Assembly (NCBI GenBank): GCA_947493335.1
Contig: CANLQO010000002.1
Span: 558,001-622,000 of the forward strand
Reading direction: 5' to 3'
DNA from: an uncultured Paracoccaceae bacterium
Lineage (GTDB): Bacteria; Pseudomonadota; Alphaproteobacteria; Rhodobacterales; Rhodobacteraceae
DNA length: 64,000 bases
Numbering within the stretch: position 1 is the stretch's first letter; each line of letters begins with the position of its first letter. The notes beneath the pieces are model-generated. The model saw nothing but the letters and a program-made list of their open reading frames with translations, made no database searches and was not told the DNA's origin. This document shows positions 32,827 to 46,402 of this stretch, in pieces. The translations under genes were made by a program, and so were the position numbers.

Positions 32827-35204
<2,378 letters not shown>

Positions 35205-37544: not shown

Positions 37545-37611
37545 CGGATTTGGTTAGCAAACACGTTGATGTATGCAAGAGCGGACAAGAAGCCGATTCA
37601 AAGAGGCGACG

Positions 37612-38349
37612 GTGGGATCAACGGACAACATGCGGCTAGAGGTGACTGTCCGCCGGAGTGACGCCGATGGCGGGTACGACCAGATCTTCAAGGTGCCTGC
37701 CTACGCCCATCAGACAGTTCTTGATGTTGTGTCATGGATCCAGCAGTACAGCGATCCGACGCTAACCTATCGGTTTGCCTGCCGCGTCGGGATGTGCGGT
37801 AGTTGCGCCATGATGGTGAACGGTGCACCGCGCTGGACCTGTCGAACACATGTCAACAAAGTGCTGAATGGCGACAGACTGCATATCGCGCCGCTGCGGA
37901 ATCTGCCTGTCGTCAAAGATCTTGTCGTCGATATGGACCCATTCTTTGACAAATGGATTGCAGCCGAGGGCTTGCATCATCCGACCAGGACCCGACATGA
38001 CCCGATCGTTTCAATTGATCCTGAGAACCCGCAGCGTGGTGAAGCCAATGCCGGAATCGAATGTATCAATTGCTCGGTTTGTTACGCGGCCTGTGACACG
38101 GTTGCGGGTAATTCCGATTATCTGGGTCCGGCCGCCTTGCTGCGTGCCTGGACCGTTTTCAATGACGAAAAGAACGCTGGCAAACAGGATATCCTGGATG
38201 CCGTCTCGGGCAGTTCAGGCTGCCATAATTGCCATTCCATGGGCAGCTGCTCCCACTTCTGTCCCAACGCGCTTAATCCCATGACTGCAATCGCGGGGCT
38301 GAAACGGGAAACCGCGAAAACCATCTTCAGGCGGCGCAAGGATGCTTGA
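37612..38349 (+). CDS. SdhB/FrdB-like iron-sulfur subunit
   Basis: The protein (245 residues) has the three cluster motifs of complex II iron-sulfur subunits: [2Fe-2S] CRVGMCGSC followed by a distant C in PRWTC, [4Fe-4S] CINCSVCYAAC, and the last set CHNCHSMGSCSHFCPNALNP. It carries electrons between the flavoprotein and the membrane subunits. I prefer GTG 37612, with AAGAGG five bases upstream; ATG 37573 and ATG 37630 are alternatives. It heads a run of six overlapping genes. It is a paralogue type, not the usual sdhCDAB order. Confidence 0.88.
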   Translation: MGSTDNMRLEVTVRRSDADGGYDQIFKVPAYAHQTVLDVVSWIQQYSDPTLTYRFACRVGMCGSCAMMVNGAPRWTCRTHVNKVLNGDRLHIAPLRNLPVVKDLVVDMDPFFDKWIAAEGLHHPTRTRHDPIVSIDPENPQRGEANAGIECINCSVCYAACDTVAGNSDYLGPAALLRAWTVFNDEKNAGKQDILDAVSGSSGCHNCHSMGSCSHFCPNALNPMTAIAGLKRETAKTIFRRRKDA

Positions 38350-38674
38350 TCTCAGGCTCTATATGGCACAGCGCATCAGTGCGATGGTGATGATCCCGCT
38401 TGTGTTGGGTCATATCGCGGTGATGATCTATGCAATACAGGGCGGACTTAGCTCCGCTGAAATCCTGTCCCGGACGCAGGGGTCAGCCTTTTGGTTTCTG
38501 TTCTACGGAGTTTTCGTGGTTGCGGTTTCGGTTCATGCCGCGATTGGTTTGCGGGTCATTGTTCATGAATGGCTGGGCCTGCGAGGCATCGCCCTGTCGC
38601 TCCTGACCTGGACGATCTGCTTGGTCCTTTTTGTCATGGGCGCGCGCGCCGTGATGGCCGTGACGTTGCTGTGA
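38342..38674 (+). CDS. Complex II-like membrane anchor subunit (SdhC/FrdC-like)
   Basis: The 110-residue protein has three membrane segments (about residues 12-32, 50-74 and 82-106). MAQRISAMVMIPLVLGHIAVM and VHAAIGLRVIVHEWLG carry histidines in positions typical for heme b binding and Arg/Ser near the quinone site in complex II anchors. It overlaps the iron-sulfur subunit gene by 8 bases and the next anchor gene by 4. Confidence 0.83.
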   Translation: MLDLRLYMAQRISAMVMIPLVLGHIAVMIYAIQGGLSSAEILSRTQGSAFWFLFYGVFVVAVSVHAAIGLRVIVHEWLGLRGIALSLLTWTICLVLFVMGARAVMAVTLL

Positions 38675-39012
38675 TACGTCCGTCCCGCTCTCACCCCTTG
38701 TGGCTGGCGTTTGTTCTGCATCGCCTATCCGGTCTTGCGTTGGCCTTGTTCCTGCCTGCCCACTTCTGGCTTTTGTCCTTGGCGTTGACCCAGCCGCAGC
38801 GGCTTGATCACATGCTGAGTTTTGCAGAAAGCCCCGTGGTCAAGATTGCGGAATTCGGTCTGGTCTTCCTGCTTTCTGTCCACATCTTCGGCGGATTGCG
38901 CCTGTTGGCGCTGGAGTTTCTGCCATGGAGCAATCGACAAAAATCGCTCGCTGCGGGTGCCATCGGCATCTCGCTACTCTTGTCCGGTCTCTTCTTGCTG
39001 CGGGCGATTTGA
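38671..39012 (+). CDS. Complex II-like membrane anchor subunit (SdhD/FrdD-like)
   Basis: The 113-residue protein has three membrane segments. VLHRLSGLALALFLPAHFWLL contains the H-R-x-S-G pattern of cytochrome b556 subunits, and LLSVHIFGGLRLLALE gives a second conserved His and the GxR motif. Translation starts at GTG 38671, overlapping the previous stop (GTGA). With the preceding gene it completes a membrane-bound complex II-like enzyme. The flavoprotein gene starts 3 bases later. Confidence 0.83.
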   Translation: MIRPSRSHPLWLAFVLHRLSGLALALFLPAHFWLLSLALTQPQRLDHMLSFAESPVVKIAEFGLVFLLSVHIFGGLRLLALEFLPWSNRQKSLAAGAIGISLLLSGLFLLRAI

Positions 39013-39015
39013 CCC

Positions 39016-40779
39016 ATGAACCTGACCCAGAACATCGACAGACATGACACGGACATCCTCATTTTGGGCACCGGTGGCGCTGGGCTCTTCGCCGCCCTTC
39101 ATGCCCAACAATCCGCCCCTCCGGGAACCAGAATAACGATCGCTGTCAAAGGGCTGGTCGGCAAATGCGGCTGCACCCGCATGGTTCAAGGTGGATACAA
39201 CGTTGCACTGGGCGGCGGTGACACAGTCGAACGTCACTTCATGGACACGATCCAGGGCGGAAAGTGGATGCCTAATCAGGACATGGCATGGCGTCTTTGC
39301 GAACAGGCGGTGGTCCGGGTTCAAGAGCTCGAGAATGAGATCGGATGCTTCTTTGACCGAAATCCTGATGGAACCCTGCATCAAAAGGCATTTGCCGGAC
39401 AAACGGCGGATCGCACCGTGCATAAGGGCGACCTGACCGGGATTGAGATCATCAACCGCCTGATGGAGCAGGTCCTGTCCCGCCCAATTGAAAAGTTGCA
39501 GGAACACCGTGCCATCGGTTTGATCCCGACCCAGGACGGGTCAGCGCTGGCCGGTGTGCTGATGATCGATATGCGCACAGGCAAGTTCCGGTTTGTCCGG
39601 GCCAAGGCGGTGCTGATGGCGACCGGTGGTGGCCCGACCATGTACAAATATCACACGCCTTCCGGCGACAAGACGATGGATGGTCTGGCCATGGCCCTGC
39701 GTGCAGGATTGGCCCTGCGCGACATGGAAATGGTGCAATTCCATCCAACCGGGCTTTTGGCGGGCCATCACACCCGTATGACCGGCACTGTGCTGGAAGA
39801 GGGACTGCGTGGTGCGGGCGGGCAACTTATCAGCCACGCGGGCCAGCGCTTCATGTTCGACTATGACGATTTGGGCGAACGCGCCACGCGTGATGTCGTC
39901 AGCCGCGGCATCTACGCCGAGATGCGCAAGAACAACAATCCAGAGCAAGAAGGCGTCTTTATCTCAATGGCGCATCTGGGTCCTGACAACGTCCGCCGGA
40001 AATTCAAGGGAATGGTCGATCGCTGCGCCGACAGCGGATTTGATCTGGCGGCCGGAAAAGTCGAAGTCGTTCCGACCGCGCATTATTTCATGGGTGGTGT
40101 CGTCGTTGATGTCGATACACGAACCGCGATGGAGGGCCTTTACGTCGCGGGCGAGGACGCGGGCGGTGCTCATGGTTCTAACAGGTTGGGGGGAAATGGG
40201 GTTGCAAACTCCACCGTCTATGGCGGCGTTGCAGGGGATACCATGGGCGCTGACATTCGCAAAATGGGCGCCCTGCGCGAACCCGATGAGGACGCCCTGA
40301 CAGCCGAGGTGGCCCGCGCCTGTCATCCGTTTGGCAAGTCACCGGCACCACTTCAGCCGCTTCGCCAAAAGCTGCAAGAGGTGATGTGGGAAGATGTCGG
40401 CGTCATGCGCACGCAATCCGGATTAGAGCGTGGCCTGACCCGCATCGCGGAAGTATCGGACGAATTGATGGAACTTGGCGTGGCTGCAGACAACTTGGCC
40501 TTTAACCTGACCTGGCACGACTGGCTGAACATGCGGTCGCTTTGCGACGTCTCGGTGGCCATAACCAAGGCCGGGCTTTCCCGCGAAAACTCGCGCGGCG
40601 CGCACTTTCGCGAAGATTTCCCCATGCCCGGTGATCTGGACGCATCATATTTCACCATCGCAACCCTGCAAAGCGGCACTGTCGCGGTGTCGCGGGAAGC
40701 CGTCGAATTTTCCATCGTCCGGCCAGGAGAAAGCATTCTGTCGGCAGATGAACCAGACACATTGGTAGGACAATCATGA
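39016..40779 (+). CDS. SdhA/FrdA-like flavoprotein lacking the covalent FAD histidine
   Basis: The 587-residue protein is a complex II-type flavoprotein: FAD-binding ILILGTGGAGLFAALHA, VLMATGGG and AGEDAGGAHGSNRLGGN. Four catalytic positions match Escherichia coli FrdA: His243 (QFHPTG), Arg292 (ATRDVVSR), His356 (PTAHYFMGG) and Arg390 (SNRLGG). The segment that normally reads RSHT with the covalent FAD histidine reads CGCT here, so Cys53 replaces it. Family knowledge predicts noncovalent FAD and poor succinate oxidation. Substrate could be fumarate or a related dicarboxylate. Its stop overlaps the hydro-lyase alpha gene (ATGA). Confidence 0.88.
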   Translation: MNLTQNIDRHDTDILILGTGGAGLFAALHAQQSAPPGTRITIAVKGLVGKCGCTRMVQGGYNVALGGGDTVERHFMDTIQGGKWMPNQDMAWRLCEQAVVRVQELENEIGCFFDRNPDGTLHQKAFAGQTADRTVHKGDLTGIEIINRLMEQVLSRPIEKLQEHRAIGLIPTQDGSALAGVLMIDMRTGKFRFVRAKAVLMATGGGPTMYKYHTPSGDKTMDGLAMALRAGLALRDMEMVQFHPTGLLAGHHTRMTGTVLEEGLRGAGGQLISHAGQRFMFDYDDLGERATRDVVSRGIYAEMRKNNNPEQEGVFISMAHLGPDNVRRKFKGMVDRCADSGFDLAAGKVEVVPTAHYFMGGVVVDVDTRTAMEGLYVAGEDAGGAHGSNRLGGNGVANSTVYGGVAGDTMGADIRKMGALREPDEDALTAEVARACHPFGKSPAPLQPLRQKLQEVMWEDVGVMRTQSGLERGLTRIAEVSDELMELGVAADNLAFNLTWHDWLNMRSLCDVSVAITKAGLSRENSRGAHFREDFPMPGDLDASYFTIATLQSGTVAVSREAVEFSIVRPGESILSADEPDTLVGQS

Positions 40780-41735
40780 TTGCAATCGACCTGATCCAGC
40801 AGACCGCGGAACAATTGATGGACAAAGCAGCCATCGAGATTCCCGATGATTACCTGACCGGTCTTCAGGCCGCTGCAGCAACCGAAGAGGGGGATTTGTC
40901 CTCATTCGTGCTGCAGGCGATGTTGGACAATTACACCGCCGCCAAAGAGGATCGCCGCGCGATGTGTGGCGACACCGGCGTGCCCCGATGGTTCGTGAAA
41001 ATGGGCAACGCGGCGCAGATCGAAGGTGGCATGTGCGCGTTGGAAACGGCGCTTCGTCGTGCGACGGCGCGTGCCACCAACGGGGTGCCCTTGCGCCCGA
41101 ACCGCGTACATCCGCTTTGGCGCACGGATCACAACAACAATGTCGGCATCGGTGCGCCCGAGATCGAATATGGGTTCGAGCCGGAGGGTGACTGGATTGA
41201 TCTGATTACGGTGCACAAGGGCGGGCTTTTTGGCACCGACTACCGGATGCTTTTTCCATCCGACGGGATCGAAGGGATCAAACGGTTCTACCTCGATTGC
41301 CTTGTGGCTTTTGGCAAGCGGGGTTTGGCCTGTCAGCCAGCGATCATCGGGATCGGCCTCGGTGGCTCCAAAGACACCTGCATGGTTCTGGGCAAACGTG
41401 CCGCGACCCTGCGGACGGTTGGCAGTCGCAATTCTGATCCAAAGATTGCGGCCCTCGAGGAGGAATTCAAAGAATTGGGAAATTCTATCGGCATGGGTGC
41501 GATGGGATTTGTCGGCAAAAACATGGTCATCGATTGCAACATCGAAGTCGGCTATTGCCACACGGGTGGTATGCAAATGTCGGTTCACGCCTTCTGCCTC
41601 AGCTCGCGCCGTGCTGTCGCACGGCTTTGGCCTGATGGGCGGGTCGCCTTCCGCACTGATCCGGACTGGTTCACACCTTACCAACGCCGCGAGACCGTTG
41701 ACTGGTCACCGCAAGAACAGGAAGCCACAGCATGA
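40776..41735 (+). CDS. Class I fumarase/L-tartrate dehydratase-type alpha subunit
   Basis: The 319-residue protein is the [4Fe-4S] subunit of a two-subunit class I hydro-lyase (fumarase, L-tartrate dehydratase or mesaconase types). Cluster cysteines are Cys64 in MCGDTGVP, the one in GLGGSKDTC, and that in EVGYCHTGGM. KNMVIDCNIE is also conserved. The enzyme adds or removes water at an oxygen-sensitive cluster. Substrate cannot be told from sequence. The gene overlaps the flavoprotein gene and the beta-subunit gene by 4 bases each. Confidence 0.88.
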   Translation: MIAIDLIQQTAEQLMDKAAIEIPDDYLTGLQAAAATEEGDLSSFVLQAMLDNYTAAKEDRRAMCGDTGVPRWFVKMGNAAQIEGGMCALETALRRATARATNGVPLRPNRVHPLWRTDHNNNVGIGAPEIEYGFEPEGDWIDLITVHKGGLFGTDYRMLFPSDGIEGIKRFYLDCLVAFGKRGLACQPAIIGIGLGGSKDTCMVLGKRAATLRTVGSRNSDPKIAALEEEFKELGNSIGMGAMGFVGKNMVIDCNIEVGYCHTGGMQMSVHAFCLSSRRAVARLWPDGRVAFRTDPDWFTPYQRRETVDWSPQEQEATA

Positions 41736-42400
41736 AGCCGCGCGAGGTCCGCCTGTCCACCACGCCGACACCAGAAGAGATCGCCAATCTGCGCCTCGGC
41801 GATATCGTCTATCTGGACGGCCTGCTCTACACCGCCCGCGAAGGCGTCTATATGCGTGCCCTTGAGGATAAGGCCAACATCCCGATGGAACTCGCTTCGG
41901 CCTCTGCGGCCAACTTCCACTGCTCTCCTGCCGCAACGATCCGGGAAGACGGGAGCTTCGACATGGGGGCCGTCACCGCGACAGCTTCGTTTCGCTTTGC
42001 CAAGTGGCTGCCGGACTGGATGGCCAAGACCGGAGCCAAACTGATCATCGGAAAAGGCGGCATGTCGTCCAAGGACTACAAGGCCTATTTTGTGCCGAAC
42101 GGTGCGGTCTACTTGTCAACGGTCGGCTATGGAACCGGCGCACTTTTGGGGCGCGGAGTTGAAGCTGTTGAGGCCGTGCACTGGCACGAGGAACTGGGAC
42201 TTGCGCAGGCGATGTGGGTCATCAGGTGCAACCGGATGGGACCATTTATCGTGGCCTCTGATCTTGACGGAAATTGCCTTTTCGAACGTGAAAACGCGCA
42301 AATCAGCAAGAACCTCGATCGTGTCTACGTTGGTACCAAACCTGCAGTATTGAAACGTTTTGGCGAGACCGACGACCGCAACGACGAAGTCATCGGTTAG
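41732..42400 (+). CDS. Class I fumarase/L-tartrate dehydratase-type beta subunit
   Basis: The 222-residue protein matches the C-terminal half of class I fumarases and TtdB: LRLGDIVYLDGLLYTAREGVY, IGKGGMSSKDY and the LGRGVEAVEAVHW region, which bind the substrate carboxylates. It completes the hydro-lyase with the preceding gene. Its stop overlaps by 4 bases that of the convergent LysR gene, so the six-gene SDH/hydro-lyase operon abuts its candidate regulator. Confidence 0.88.
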   Translation: MKPREVRLSTTPTPEEIANLRLGDIVYLDGLLYTAREGVYMRALEDKANIPMELASASAANFHCSPAATIREDGSFDMGAVTATASFRFAKWLPDWMAKTGAKLIIGKGGMSSKDYKAYFVPNGAVYLSTVGYGTGALLGRGVEAVEAVHWHEELGLAQAMWVIRCNRMGPFIVASDLDGNCLFERENAQISKNLDRVYVGTKPAVLKRFGETDDRNDEVIG

Positions 42401-43296
42401 CCGGATGGATCAATCTGGAGCCGCCCAATTGTGACTGCCTCAAGCAGCGTCGTATGCAATATTTCAAGGATACGGGTTCTTGGATTGTCCGACCGATAGA
42501 TCAGAACAAGCTTTCGGCTTGGCGCATCAGCACCAAGGGAAATGCGTTTGATCGGAACGGGGTTTGGGCTTTTGACGCAGGTTCGCGGTACAATGGAAAC
42601 ACCAAGATTTGCCGCCACCATGCTCGAAATTGCCTCTAGGCTTTCCAACTCCATCGTTTCGTCGACCCGCAGGTTCATCGATTGAAACCAGTTTTCGATC
42701 AACTGCCCCACAACGGCGCTGCGATTGAACCGAATGAACGGGTTCTCCGTCATCAATTTAAGTGGATCGTCGCTCGTCGTCTGCGGGGCCGCCAACAATT
42801 CAAGAGGTTCTTCAGCCAAGAACTTCGCTGTGATTTGCGCAGGCAAAGACGGCGGTTCCGAAATCACGGCCGCATCCAGACGACCCCGCTCGATCTCGGC
42901 CAAAAGCGGCAGCGTCAGGCCCGGATTGACGCGCACGTGCAAGTGGTCGAGCTTCCGCTTCAATAGATTGATCGTCAGCGGCATAAGCCCGGTCAGTGTT
43001 GTCGGCAAAGCACCCAAGGAGATTTCGCCGCGCAGCCCTTTGTCCCCCAGAATGGATGGCACCATGTCGTCATAAGCGCCAACAACGTCTTTGGCCTTGG
43101 CAACGAAGGCGCGACCGATCGGGGTCAGTTCCGGCGTCCGCTTCGTCCGATCAAATAGGATCACGTCAAACGCAGCCTCAAGTGTGCGCATTTGTTGGCT
43201 GACCGCCGCATGGGTGACATGAATGTCTTCTGCTGCGGCACTGAAAGTCCGGTTCTTTTCGACCGCGATCAGGGTTCTGAGCATGCGAATTGACAT
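42397..43296 (-). CDS. LysR-family regulator between the SDH-like and pca operons
   Basis: The 299-residue protein has a LysR helix-turn-helix (MLRTLIAVEKNRTFSAAAEDIHVTHAAVSQQMRTL) and a standard effector domain. It is not the PcaQ type, whose N-terminus is different. It diverges from pcaC, with a TAAGTTCAACTTA palindrome 24 bases upstream of its own start, so it likely controls pcaCHGB and itself. It ends in a 4-base overlap with the hydro-lyase beta gene. Candidate effectors are protocatechuate, carboxymuconate or beta-ketoadipate; this is inference. Confidence 0.88.
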   Translation of the reverse strand: MSIRMLRTLIAVEKNRTFSAAAEDIHVTHAAVSQQMRTLEAAFDVILFDRTKRTPELTPIGRAFVAKAKDVVGAYDDMVPSILGDKGLRGEISLGALPTTLTGLMPLTINLLKRKLDHLHVRVNPGLTLPLLAEIERGRLDAAVISEPPSLPAQITAKFLAEEPLELLAAPQTTSDDPLKLMTENPFIRFNRSAVVGQLIENWFQSMNLRVDETMELESLEAISSMVAANLGVSIVPRTCVKSPNPVPIKRISLGADAPSRKLVLIYRSDNPRTRILEILHTTLLEAVTIGRLQIDPSG

Positions 43297-43476: not shown

Positions 43477-43854
43477 ATGACAGACAAGTACGACATCGGC
43501 ATGACTGTCAGGCGGTCAGTTCTGGGTGATGCACATGTTGATCGGGCAGAGGCTCAGAAAACCTCGCTCGATGATCCGTTTCAGACACTGATCACCGAGG
43601 CGGCTTGGGGCACCGTTTGGGCCAGCGACCGCATCAGTCTGCGAGAACGCTCGATGATCACGCTCGCGCTTTTGGCGGCGACTGGAAACTTTAATGAGAT
43701 CCCCATGCATATCCGCGCAACGGCGCAAACGGGTGCCAGCAAGGAAGATGTGCTTGAGGCCTTTCAGCATGTCGCCATCTACGCGGGCGTCCCGCGTGCC
43801 AACCATGCGCTGAAACTGGCCAAGGCAACCTATGCGGAAATGGAACAAGGCTGA
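43477..43854 (+). CDS. pcaC: 4-carboxymuconolactone decarboxylase
   Basis: PcaC decarboxylates gamma-carboxymuconolactone to beta-ketoadipate enol-lactone. The 125-residue protein has the AhpD-like fold, with FQTLITEAAWGTVWA, RERSMITLALLAATGN and the C-terminal HVAIYAGVPRANHALKLA, as in Acinetobacter and Pseudomonas PcaC. A good ribosome binding site (CAGGAGAT) precedes ATG 43477. First gene of pcaCHGB; pcaD, whose enzyme uses the product, is not in the window. Confidence 0.93.
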   Translation: MTDKYDIGMTVRRSVLGDAHVDRAEAQKTSLDDPFQTLITEAAWGTVWASDRISLRERSMITLALLAATGNFNEIPMHIRATAQTGASKEDVLEAFQHVAIYAGVPRANHALKLAKATYAEMEQG

Positions 43855-43897
43855 CCCGGACACCGGGCTCATCAGACGGCAAAGGACCTTTCTGAAA

Positions 43898-44626
43898 ATG
43901 CAGACCCCAGGTGATTTTTATCGGCGGGACCGCGACTGGCATCCGCCAGCTTGTGCGCCTGAATACAAGTCAAGCATCACCCGGTCACCGCGCTATCGCC
44001 TTGTTGCGATGCCGCACTCGCTCAGCGAAACAACCGGTCCCGTTTTTGGGCATAATGATATCGACCCAATGGACAGGGATCTGATCACGAACTTCGCGCA
44101 AACCGGCGCCGCGCCGATTGGTGAGCGTATCATTCTCCATGGTCAGGTTCTGGATCAGAATTGTCGTCCGGTGCCAAGAACGCTGATCGAAATCTGGCAG
44201 GCCAACGCAGGCGGGCGCTATCGCCATCGCAATGATCACTATTTTGCGCCGATTGATCCAAACTTTGGTGGCTGCGGACGCACATTGACCGACGAAAATG
44301 GTTTTTACACATTCCACACCGTGAAACCCGGCGCCTATCCGTGGCCGAATTTCGACAACAGCTGGCGACCGGCCCATATCCACTTCTCCCTCTTTGGTGA
44401 AGCTTATGCCCAGCGCCTGATAACCCAGTGCTATTTTGAGGGCGATCCGTTGATCAACCTTTGCCCGATCGTGCAGGCGATCCCGGACCCCAATGGCGTC
44501 GACATGCTTGTCGCCAAGCTCGACATGGACACGACCATCCCCTTTGACAGCATTGCCTACCGGTTCGACATCGTCTTGCGGGGCCGCCACGCGACCCCGT
44601 TTGAGAGCCGACCGGAGGGGAATTGA
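43898..44626 (+). CDS. pcaH: Protocatechuate 3,4-dioxygenase beta subunit
   Basis: PcaH carries the active-site Fe(III) of the intradiol dioxygenase that opens protocatechuate to 3-carboxy-cis,cis-muconate. The 242-residue protein has all four iron ligands at the same numbers as Pseudomonas putida: Tyr108, Tyr147, His160 and His162. LIEIWQANAGGRYRH and RPAHIHFSLFG are typical. ATG 43898 follows AAAGGA; the frame upstream overlaps pcaC. The stop overlaps the pcaG start (TGATG). Confidence 0.96.
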   Translation: MQTPGDFYRRDRDWHPPACAPEYKSSITRSPRYRLVAMPHSLSETTGPVFGHNDIDPMDRDLITNFAQTGAAPIGERIILHGQVLDQNCRPVPRTLIEIWQANAGGRYRHRNDHYFAPIDPNFGGCGRTLTDENGFYTFHTVKPGAYPWPNFDNSWRPAHIHFSLFGEAYAQRLITQCYFEGDPLINLCPIVQAIPDPNGVDMLVAKLDMDTTIPFDSIAYRFDIVLRGRHATPFESRPEGN

Positions 44627-45246
44627 TGACAAATGCCCCGCGCACCCTCAAGGAAACACCGTCTCAGACGGCTGGTCCCTATCTTCACATCGGGCTTACA
44701 CCAGCCGCAACGGGCTTAGAGATCTCCGATCGACAACTTGGCACCGACATTGCAGGTCCGCATGCCAACGGAACCCGCATTCGTATCGAGGGTCTGATCC
44801 TTGATGGCACCGGAACGCCGATGACGGACGCTCTGTTGGAAATCTGGCAGGCGAATGGTGAAGGCATCTATGCCCACCCCGATGATGGCCGCCCAGTCGA
44901 AGATGGTTTCCGGGGGTGGGGCCGCGTCACTACTGATTTTGAAACCGGCGAATGGGGCTTTGATACCATTAAACCGGGACAATCGCGTGGTCCCGATGGC
45001 GGCCTGCAAGCGCCGCATATCAATGCGTGGGTTGTCGCACGCGGCATCAACCTGGGCCTGCACACTCGGATCTATTTTGATGATGAACCGCAGGCCAATG
45101 CGACCGATCCTGTCCTCAACCTGATCGAAGATGAACGCCGCCAGAAGACCTTGATCGCGAAACGAACCGACCGCGCCGGTCAGGTGGTCTATCGGTTTGA
45201 TATCCGCCTGCAAAGCGAAGACGAAACCGTCTTCTTTGACATATAG
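44626..45246 (+). CDS. pcaG: Protocatechuate 3,4-dioxygenase alpha subunit
   Basis: The 206-residue protein is the non-catalytic alpha subunit: TPSQTAGPYLHIGL at the start, LLEIWQANGEGIYAHP, and RIYFDDEPQANATDPVL near the end. It lacks the four iron ligands as a set, as expected. The ATG at 44626 has GGAGGGG six bases upstream and overlaps the pcaH stop by one base; TTG 44623 would be a weaker choice. PcaG and PcaH form an (alpha-beta) oligomer in the cytoplasm. Confidence 0.95.
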   Translation: MTNAPRTLKETPSQTAGPYLHIGLTPAATGLEISDRQLGTDIAGPHANGTRIRIEGLILDGTGTPMTDALLEIWQANGEGIYAHPDDGRPVEDGFRGWGRVTTDFETGEWGFDTIKPGQSRGPDGGLQAPHINAWVVARGINLGLHTRIYFDDEPQANATDPVLNLIEDERRQKTLIAKRTDRAGQVVYRFDIRLQSEDETVFFDI

Positions 45247-45328
45247 CGCCGCTTGCATCCTACTGCGGCCGCATATCCAAGACTGCCAAACCGCGTCAAA
45301 CCGCACCGCAGCACCAAAGGACAATGAC

Positions 45329-46402
45329 ATGGTGACCGACCCATTCACTCATCCTTGGCTTAGCGCCTCGTTTGCTGATCCGGGTACCGCGTCCGCCTTT
45401 GACGCGGCCAACGTCATGGCGCACATGCTGAATGTTGAGGCAACTTATGCAGAGGCGCTGGGCGCGGTCGGGCAAATTGATCCGCAATTAGCAGCCGACG
45501 TTGCAGGTCGGATCAGGGACTTTGTGCCGGACCTTCAGGGTTTGAAGGCAGGTGCAGGTCGTGACGGTCTGGTAGTGCCGACCCTTGTGGCTCAGCTTCG
45601 CGCGGCATTGCCCGAAACGCACCATGTCGGCCTGCACAAAGGCATGACCTCTCAGGATGTGATTGATACGGCTTTGGTCCTGACACTGAGATCGGCAACT
45701 GAGACCCTTCGCGCCGGGCTAATGGGCCTGAAATCCGCGCTGCAATTACTGTCGAAGACGCATGGCGCATCCGAACTGACGGGCCGCACCCGAATGCAGG
45801 CCGCCCTTCCCATCACAGCACACGACCGCATCGACAGTTGGTTGCAGCCGCTGGATGCACATCTGTTGCGACTTCATGATATCTCACCCCGCCTTTTTGC
45901 GCTGCAATTGGGTGGCCCAGTTGGCAATCGCGCCAGCCTAGGCCCGAATGCCGCGCAGATCGCGACGGCGATGGCAAATGCTCTGGGCCTTACTGAACCC
46001 GGTGCCGCTTGGCACAACGACCGCAGCACAATTGTGGACTACGCCGGTTGGTTGTCGCTGGTGTCTGGTCATCTGGGCAAGTTCGGACAGGATATCACCC
46101 TGATGGCCCAGCAAGGCATTGATGAGATCGCCCTTTCAGGTGGTGGCGGGTCGTCCGCGATGCCGCACAAACAAAACCCGGTTCTGGCTGAAACCCTCGT
46201 AACCCTCGCACGCTTTAACGCGACACAGGTGGCGGGGATGCATCATGCCCTGATCCACGAACAAGAAAGGTCCGGCGCAGCTTGGTCACTCGAATGGATG
46301 ATCCTGCCGAACATGGTGCAGACAACAGGACGCGGCCTTTCAATCGCGATGTCGGTTTGTGAAAGCATTCAGCGTATCGGGCACGCTGACCCCGATGCGT
46401 AA
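45329..46402 (+). CDS. pcaB: 3-carboxy-cis,cis-muconate cycloisomerase (short form)
   Basis: PcaB converts 3-carboxymuconate to gamma-carboxymuconolactone. It belongs to the fumarase/aspartase superfamily, shown by GLHKGMTSQDVIDTALVLTL, QLGGPVGNRASLG and the signature SGGGGSSAMPHKQNPVLAE. At 357 residues it lacks the C-terminal domain of the roughly 450-residue Pseudomonas enzyme, which is usual for alphaproteobacterial PcaB. ATG 45329 follows AAAGGA. It is the last pca gene here, 82 bases after pcaG. Confidence 0.93.
   Translation: MVTDPFTHPWLSASFADPGTASAFDAANVMAHMLNVEATYAEALGAVGQIDPQLAADVAGRIRDFVPDLQGLKAGAGRDGLVVPTLVAQLRAALPETHHVGLHKGMTSQDVIDTALVLTLRSATETLRAGLMGLKSALQLLSKTHGASELTGRTRMQAALPITAHDRIDSWLQPLDAHLLRLHDISPRLFALQLGGPVGNRASLGPNAAQIATAMANALGLTEPGAAWHNDRSTIVDYAGWLSLVSGHLGKFGQDITLMAQQGIDEIALSGGGGSSAMPHKQNPVLAETLVTLARFNATQVAGMHHALIHEQERSGAAWSLEWMILPNMVQTTGRGLSIAMSVCESIQRIGHADPDA

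Follow-up and report, generated by a model that had tools for sequence, protein, structure and literature searches.

In the flavoproteins of complex II (SdhABCD/FrdABCD), the FAD is linked to a histidine. This covalent bond is tied to succinate oxidation and, as judged from engineered non-covalent forms, raises the potential by ~90-150 mV (PMC9557727). In FrdA, a capping-domain residue, Thr244, twists the substrate, and the proton comes from Arg287 (PMC5773532). Further systems close to the locus described here are the CoM/CoB fumarate reductase TfrA, class I fumarase/TtdAB, and the operons for sulfonate dissimilation with TauE, a SuyZ-type exporter and the sulfolactate route.

The window, which is the whole 64-kb stretch of DNA that was analysed, contains an operon in which genes for SdhB, SdhD, SdhC and a flavoprotein are followed by the alpha and beta genes of a hydro-lyase:

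37573..38349, plus strand: SdhB-like iron-sulfur subunit, 258 aa (TIGR00384 180 bits, cut-off 88)
38342..38674, plus strand: SdhD-like membrane anchor, 110 aa (PF01127 over cut-off; TIGR02968 33.4 bits, below the cut-off of 41.8)
38671..39012, plus strand: SdhC-like cytochrome b556 subunit, 113 aa from the GTG at 38671 (TIGR02970 and PF01127 over cut-off)
39016..40779, plus strand: flavoprotein subunit of 587 aa carrying Cys53 and Glu261 (PF00890 and PF02910 above their cut-offs)
39172..39174, plus strand: Cys53 codon TGC, at the position of the FAD-linking His of SdhA/FrdA (translation and alignment)
39796..39798, plus strand: Glu261 codon, at the position of FrdA Thr244, second family-specific change (family versus outgroup alignment)
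40776..41735, plus strand: class I (4Fe-4S) hydro-lyase alpha subunit, fumarase/TtdA family (TIGR00722 212 bits, cut-off 100.65)
41732..42400, plus strand: class I hydro-lyase beta subunit, TtdB/FumA C-terminal family (PF05683 over cut-off; TIGR00723 112.4 bits, below 145.15)
42397..43296, minus strand: LysR regulator, likely of the SdhBDC-flavoprotein-hydro-lyase operon (relatives flank the operon elsewhere)

The Fe-S cysteines and the SdhC/SdhD anchors are shared with complex II. Cys70, 75, 78, 90, 164, 167, 170, 174, 220, 226 and 230 of SdhB were each invariant in 114/114 homologues, and these 11 residues are presumably the number expected for the 2Fe-2S, 4Fe-4S and 3Fe-4S clusters. His65 of SdhD, in the haem-ligand motif, was kept in all 111 homologues, and in SdhC both Ser20 of the HRLSG quinone motif and His71 were found in 114 of 114; the TIGR02970 score of 61.6 bits (cut-off 52.3) was obtained on the longer SdhC ORF 38569-39012. 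A three-cluster SdhB together with anchors that carry the haem-motif His points to a membrane complex of the SQR type. The flavoprotein itself reached 231 bits for PF00890 and 96 bits for PF02910, and like complex II it has His243, Arg265, Arg292, His356 and Arg390. SdhA/FrdA were the top Foldseek matches of its AlphaFold model (pTM 0.82, mean pLDDT 72.3), with an E of 1.9e-36 to 7d6v and a TM of ~0.8 between the predicted structure and both FrdA and SdhA. The cofactor is absent from this model, and because pLDDT fell below 50 in the two stretches relevant to Cys53 and Glu261 (residues 46-60 and 239-260), only the fold was used and the geometry of the two residues was left aside.

Several features set the locus apart from these systems. 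Its gene order is B-D-C-A, its operon is shared with a hydro-lyase, and the flavoprotein did not reach the cut-off of any listed SdhA, FrdA, TfrA or NadB model (25 of the 30 matching NCBIfam families were listed), TIGR01812 among them with 407.5 bits versus 567.3. Its best NCBIfam score among the families listed was to TfrA (NF004900), although the 459.6 bits are far under the cut-off of 718; since membrane anchors are present in the operon, the complex would be quinone-linked, unlike TfrA. The hydro-lyase resembles class I fumarase/TtdAB as a two-subunit 4Fe-4S enzyme, with the three Cys ligands of its alpha subunit invariant (Cys64 115/115, Cys186 114/114, Cys274 113/113 homologues), alpha over the TIGR00722 cut-off, beta below that of TIGR00723, and an alignment of alpha with the 7xky fumarate hydratase. 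It differs in being a regular partner of a complex II and in scoring under the fumarase and tartrate dehydratase equivalog cut-offs (NF006084 148.8/365, NF004885 200.4/276, NF006082 120.7/264). Alpha is the single PF05681 match in the host genome, which also encodes a canonical SdhA with RSHT and one SdhE.

A sequence-only reading of the window had placed a cysteine where the FAD-linking His is expected, and the alignments bear this out. The local sequence is AVKGLVGK-C51-G52-C53-T54-R55-M56-V57-Q58-G59-G60. The MAFFT outgroup consisted of the 19 best-scoring non-members from a phylum search of 398 genomes and the host genome's own SdhA; its residues 52-55 were taken from MAFFT, as BLAST misplaces gaps there. 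In all 20 outgroup rows the Cys53 column was His (RSH[ST]), and the spacing from Cys53 to QGG equalled that from the outgroup His to QGG. Compared with the outgroup, the family has one additional residue ahead of CGC and an insertion of six residues after HPTG. The same reading had suggested looking whether the cysteine is fixed among homologues. Among 127 distinct family sequences scoring at least 400 bits, 126 have Cys53 and one has a local alignment that does not cover this position; Cys53 is therefore not a chance feature. Cys51 is variable in the same set (100 Cys, 25 Ser, 1 Thr, 1 uncovered). Glu261, which aligns with E. coli FrdA Thr244, was found in 127/127 members, whereas the outgroup column contained Thr in 23 and Ser in 2 of 25 rows. 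His243, Arg292, His356 and Arg390, the catalytic set already described as kept, were each retained in 127/127. Cys53 and Glu261 are a fixed signature of a complex II flavoprotein family.

This family forms a separate clade: in genome searches, members scored at least 522 bits and the next relatives at most 275. In the phylum search of 398 genomes, members scored at least 809 bits and all others 275 or less; the most distant members found, from Rhodococcus and haloarchaea, were at 522-552 bits. On a FastTree tree, which has long branches and from which identical rows were dropped, the split between family and outgroup corresponded to one change; the tree was used solely for this split and for a row count of neighbour genes. 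In a class-level draw, the flavoprotein could be identified in 32/385 genomes at an E of 1e-150 or better. Members occur in roseobacters, Paracoccus, rhizobia, Burkholderiales and some haloarchaea, and 13 of 18 plasmid records annotate the protein as 'FAD-binding protein'. In four genomes (G351, G178, G044 and G194), one in-frame stop lies inside the flavoprotein match, which may reflect a pseudogene or an assembly error.

Gene neighbourhoods were compared for 89 loci, namely 9 plasmid loci (of the 18 records) and 80 named genome loci, the latter being the best 80 of 587 and hence biased toward near kin. Neighbour genes were identified by tblastn with annotated references and counted in the 54 fully flanked loci, while 35/89 loci with short flanks were left out. 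All six operon genes were found by tblastn in 51/54 loci, the exceptions being Rhodococcus and two haloarchaea; in the Rhodococcus locus, Pfam recognises an anchor (PF01127) as well as alpha and beta of the hydro-lyase. A TauE-like gene was located within ~10 kb of the operon in 39/54 loci, or in 32/45 without the 9 plasmid loci, which include the 7 that had supplied the TauE references; the background is 230 matches in 138 Mb, corresponding to 0.033 expected per 20 kb. SorA/SoxC matches and the sulfate exporter YeiH were each found at 7/54 loci. At least one of TauE, YeiH, SorA and SoxC was present in 40/54 loci (48 of 73 tree rows) and none of the four in 14/54. The SoxC equivalog of a Methylobacterium locus scored 607 bits (cut-off 420) and the SorT equivalog of a Pseudomonas locus 667 bits (cut-off 570). 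Among the matches listed for the 32 flavoprotein-bearing class genomes and read by eye, TauE was no more than 15 kb away from the flavoprotein in at least 10 and from the canonical sdhA in at least 2, the host genome being one of the latter (Fisher one-sided p 0.011). On the contig of the flavoprotein, YeiH was found in 0/32 of these genomes, and PF00174 was close to the flavoprotein in 1/32.

Transporters for uptake are also found near the operon. TTT transporter matches were observed in 26/54 loci, and in Roseovarius nubinhibens the TTT genes are directly upstream of sdhB. In Paracoccus onubensis, SdhB, SdhD, SdhC, flavoprotein, alpha and beta are followed on the opposite strand by TauE, LysR, an SsuA_fam-like binding protein (85 bits, below the cut-off of 163.5), a permease and an ATPase, which puts TauE in seventh and the ABC ATPase in eleventh place from SdhB, with more genes beyond. 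Other matches to sulfonate enzymes remained below cut-off: an L-sulfolactate-dehydrogenase-like gene in the haloarchaeal locus L047 (340 bits versus 500), and a TPP enzyme near 15/54 loci with 156-171 bits to sulfoacetaldehyde acetyltransferase models (cut-offs 620-676).

No match to TauE, YeiH or SorA/SoxC was found within the 64-kb window. Its LysR belongs to a single-linkage cluster spanning 62/108 sources and is 50.8% identical to the TauE-adjacent LysR of P. onubensis and 56.2% to that of R. nubinhibens; in other loci this cluster adjoins TauE. In the host genome, neither YeiH nor a PF00174 match of SoxC/SorA strength was found (best 122.8 bits, second 22.1, below the cut-off), and six TauE genes are located outside the window, one of them 8 kb from the canonical sdhA. 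On another contig of the host (L158; G000 contig 6, 103000-112000), molybdopterin, Fe-S and DmsC-like genes lie side by side as a DmsABC/Soe-like set, which may be a sulfite dehydrogenase of the SoeABC type.

From these comparisons, the family is a new form of complex II and probably a sulfonate-linked dehydrogenase. The balance tips slightly towards a four-subunit, membrane-bound, quinone-linked complex II-type dehydrogenase acting on a sulfonated C4 dicarboxylate, most likely 2-sulfosuccinate. With Glu261 in place of Thr, the Arg retained and six residues added after HPTG, the enzyme probably still performs the same redox chemistry but on a different substrate. The SQR-type anchors and the lack of a MenA match above the cut-off speak for oxidation coupled to ubiquinone, and sulfosuccinate fits a desaturase and a fumarase-type hydratase encoded near sulfite genes and TTT or sulfonate-type ABC uptake. 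The suggestion that the enzyme acts on another dicarboxylate is favoured, with Glu261 at the position of the substrate-twisting Thr. The complex would desaturate sulfosuccinate to sulfofumarate, and the electrons would reach ubiquinone by way of FAD, the three Fe-S clusters and haem b. The adjoining 4Fe-4S hydro-lyase would add water at the sulfonated carbon, yielding 2-hydroxy-2-sulfosuccinate. This compound is the bisulfite adduct of oxaloacetate and would collapse to oxaloacetate and sulfite. Sulfite could then be exported by TauE or oxidised by enzymes of the SorT/SoxC/Soe type. Gene order, residues, their conservation and the linkage among relatives are observed, while the substrate, the direction, the site of hydration, the release of sulfite and the flavin state are predicted.

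Sulfonate dissimilation operons share TauE, a YeiH-type exporter, sulfite dehydrogenases and TTT/SsuA-like uptake with neighbourhoods of relatives. They differ in that none of the six genes of the present operon is a known desulfonating enzyme and that the C-S cleavage predicted here would consist of desaturation and hydration. If this is correct, C-S bonds could be cleaved by a respiratory route that needs no oxygenase, and a function would be given to a family mostly annotated as 'FAD-binding protein' in plasmid records. In the open-access literature searched, neither growth or enzyme data on sulfosuccinate degradation nor a gene for the sulfosuccinate step was found; a desulphonation of sulphosuccinate by a Pseudomonas was reportedly described in 1994. 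Mercaptosuccinate degradation was considered and set aside; it uses a dioxygenase, and neither the term 'succinate dehydrogenase' nor 'sulfosuccinate' appears anywhere in the main text of that paper (PMC5373536).

Published expression data link a putatively corresponding cluster to growth on a sulfonate. In Paracoccus wurundjeri grown on sulfofucose, a cluster 3 of 11 locus numbers, MDP0926751-0926761, labelled 'fumarate and tartrate metabolism' and with a TauE homologue as seventh gene, was raised, with nine proteins up, and beyond a possible link to the Krebs cycle the authors propose nothing for its enzymes (PMC12421959). One number is printed there as 0926575 in one place. The position of TauE and the gene count in P. 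onubensis lead us to infer that this operon and cluster 3 are the same; the end of the match at gene eleven is our own reading, since the genes of P. onubensis continue. The sulfofucose route releases sulfite (PMC12421959). As sulfosuccinate is absent from that published route, the induction of cluster 3 may be triggered by sulfite. If the proposed function is correct, it would account for a protein cluster raised in that proteome whose enzymes have no assigned role.

The same induction, on a route that yields sulfite and not sulfosuccinate, would also be consistent with an operon that salvages sulfosuccinate formed when sulfite adds to fumarate in sulfite-making cells. We consider such a repair role improbable, since uptake transporters adjoin the operon, which suggests an external substrate, and nothing on the formation of a sulfite-fumarate adduct in cells was found in the open-access literature searched. 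A thiol- or thioether-substituted succinate, for instance S-(2-succinyl)cysteine or an alkylthiosuccinate, could be desaturated and hydrated, and following the same hemiketal logic the product would split into a thiol and oxaloacetate. The chemistry would be identical to that of the sulfosuccinate route, and an S-methyltransferase-family gene (PF02574) is located between the alpha and beta genes in loci L166 and L167, with an ORF of like start and size at this place in L049. The insert, however, is found at these three loci, and the sulfite dehydrogenases and exporters suit the release of sulfite and not of a thiol, so that a thiosuccinate as the substrate appears to be something of a long shot. 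The strongest competitor, although unlikely in our judgement, is a sulfur-free substituted succinate (methylsuccinate/mesaconate/citramalate or a tricarballylate-like acid), with TauE moving an organic anion. TauE-family proteins may indeed move other anions, the window sits amid aromatic-acid genes, and its lack of sulfite genes, the 14/54 loci without TauE, YeiH, SorA and SoxC, and the near absence of YeiH and PF00174 beside the flavoprotein in the 32 class genomes argue against sulfosuccinate. The TTT transporters, which are of the tricarboxylate type, would suit such acids, and several operons contain a family III CoA-transferase (cluster of 12/108 sources). Family III CoA-transferases feature in citramalate pathways. 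On the other hand, SorT and SoxC equivalogs and YeiH exporters occur across several lineages, and the matched Paracoccus cluster is induced on a sulfonate (PMC12421959).

The sequence-only reading had proposed a fumarate reductase with non-covalent FAD, in line with the replacement of His by Cys and the retained catalytic His/Arg set; homologues with non-covalent FAD are described as active in fumarate reduction alone (PMC9557727). This proposal does not hold up well and is very improbable, the least likely among the readings weighed. The anchors are of the SQR type, with the invariant haem-motif His and the Ser of HRLSG, and a hydro-lyase shares the operon. The equivalent of Thr244 is Glu in every family member. 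In a search of the host genome covering the MenA route, no MenA was found above the cut-off (25.8 bits versus 102.15), and ubiquinol would therefore have to drive fumarate reduction, which is uphill.

By E. coli logic, the potential of non-covalent FAD would be too low for succinate-type oxidation, which argues against a dehydrogenase (PMC9557727); H44S is among the engineered E. coli variants behind the rule of non-covalent FAD (PMC5773532). From the sequences, Cys53 might be either non-ligating or the ligand of an 8-alpha-S-cysteinyl-FAD, and by analogy with the variants, non-covalent FAD is possible. FrdA H44C is likewise reported to bind FAD non-covalently. As this rule stems from engineered proteins, whereas the cysteine is native here and preceded by one additional residue, an S-cysteinyl link is conceivable. 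A dehydrogenase without the His must either rely on a substrate or a protein environment in which a lower potential is tolerated, or bind its FAD covalently through Cys53. Cysteinyl-FAD occurs in other flavoenzymes, and to our knowledge no earlier complex II with a cysteinyl flavin has been described. The full combination of a high-potential sulfosuccinate:ubiquinone oxidoreductase carrying 8-alpha-S-cysteinyl-FAD on Cys53 and C-S cleavage by the hydratase via the bisulfite adduct of oxaloacetate is conceivable, if doubtful. With Cys placed for His by evolution in a quinone-linked enzyme, the family offers a natural test of the purpose of the covalent flavin in complex II.

Some loci deviate from the common arrangement. 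The haloarchaeal plasmids L046 and L047 encode the flavoprotein and the Fe-S subunit with no anchors nearby, and the flavoprotein is adjoined by TauE, two UxaA-family genes and an argininosuccinate-lyase homologue, which in L047 is over the argH cut-off and has 257 bits to XcbC (cut-off 575). In L119, L168 and L172, the flavoprotein gene is preceded by distant hydro-lyase subunits (27-36% identity; alpha alone seen in L172), and UxaA-like and Ldh-type genes lie in the vicinity. The UxaA-like genes of the haloarchaeal and Caballeronia loci were considered as SuyB, which the searches did not support: a PDB search with one of each gave galactarate dehydratase alone, and the NCBIfam matches were solely weak ones to galactarate dehydratase. 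The S-methyltransferase-family insert, of the homocysteine type, is at 12089-13003 in L166 and was recognised by sequence likeness in L167, the two loci being from the same genus (genomes G736 and G734). The family III CoA-transferase lies between alpha and beta in roseobacter loci, at 12687-13862 in L052 (PF02515) and, by sequence likeness, in L054, L066, L069 and L077. In the window, aromatic-acid genes flank the operon region at 32839-34014 and 43477-46402, comprising an FAD hydroxylase read by eye as PobA, pcaC by TIGR02425, and dioxygenase and cycloisomerase ORFs by eye. A gene of the mandelate racemase/muconate lactonizing family, with matches in 8/89 loci including L039 (12398-13537), is found next to the operon and could racemise an alpha-sulfo acid.
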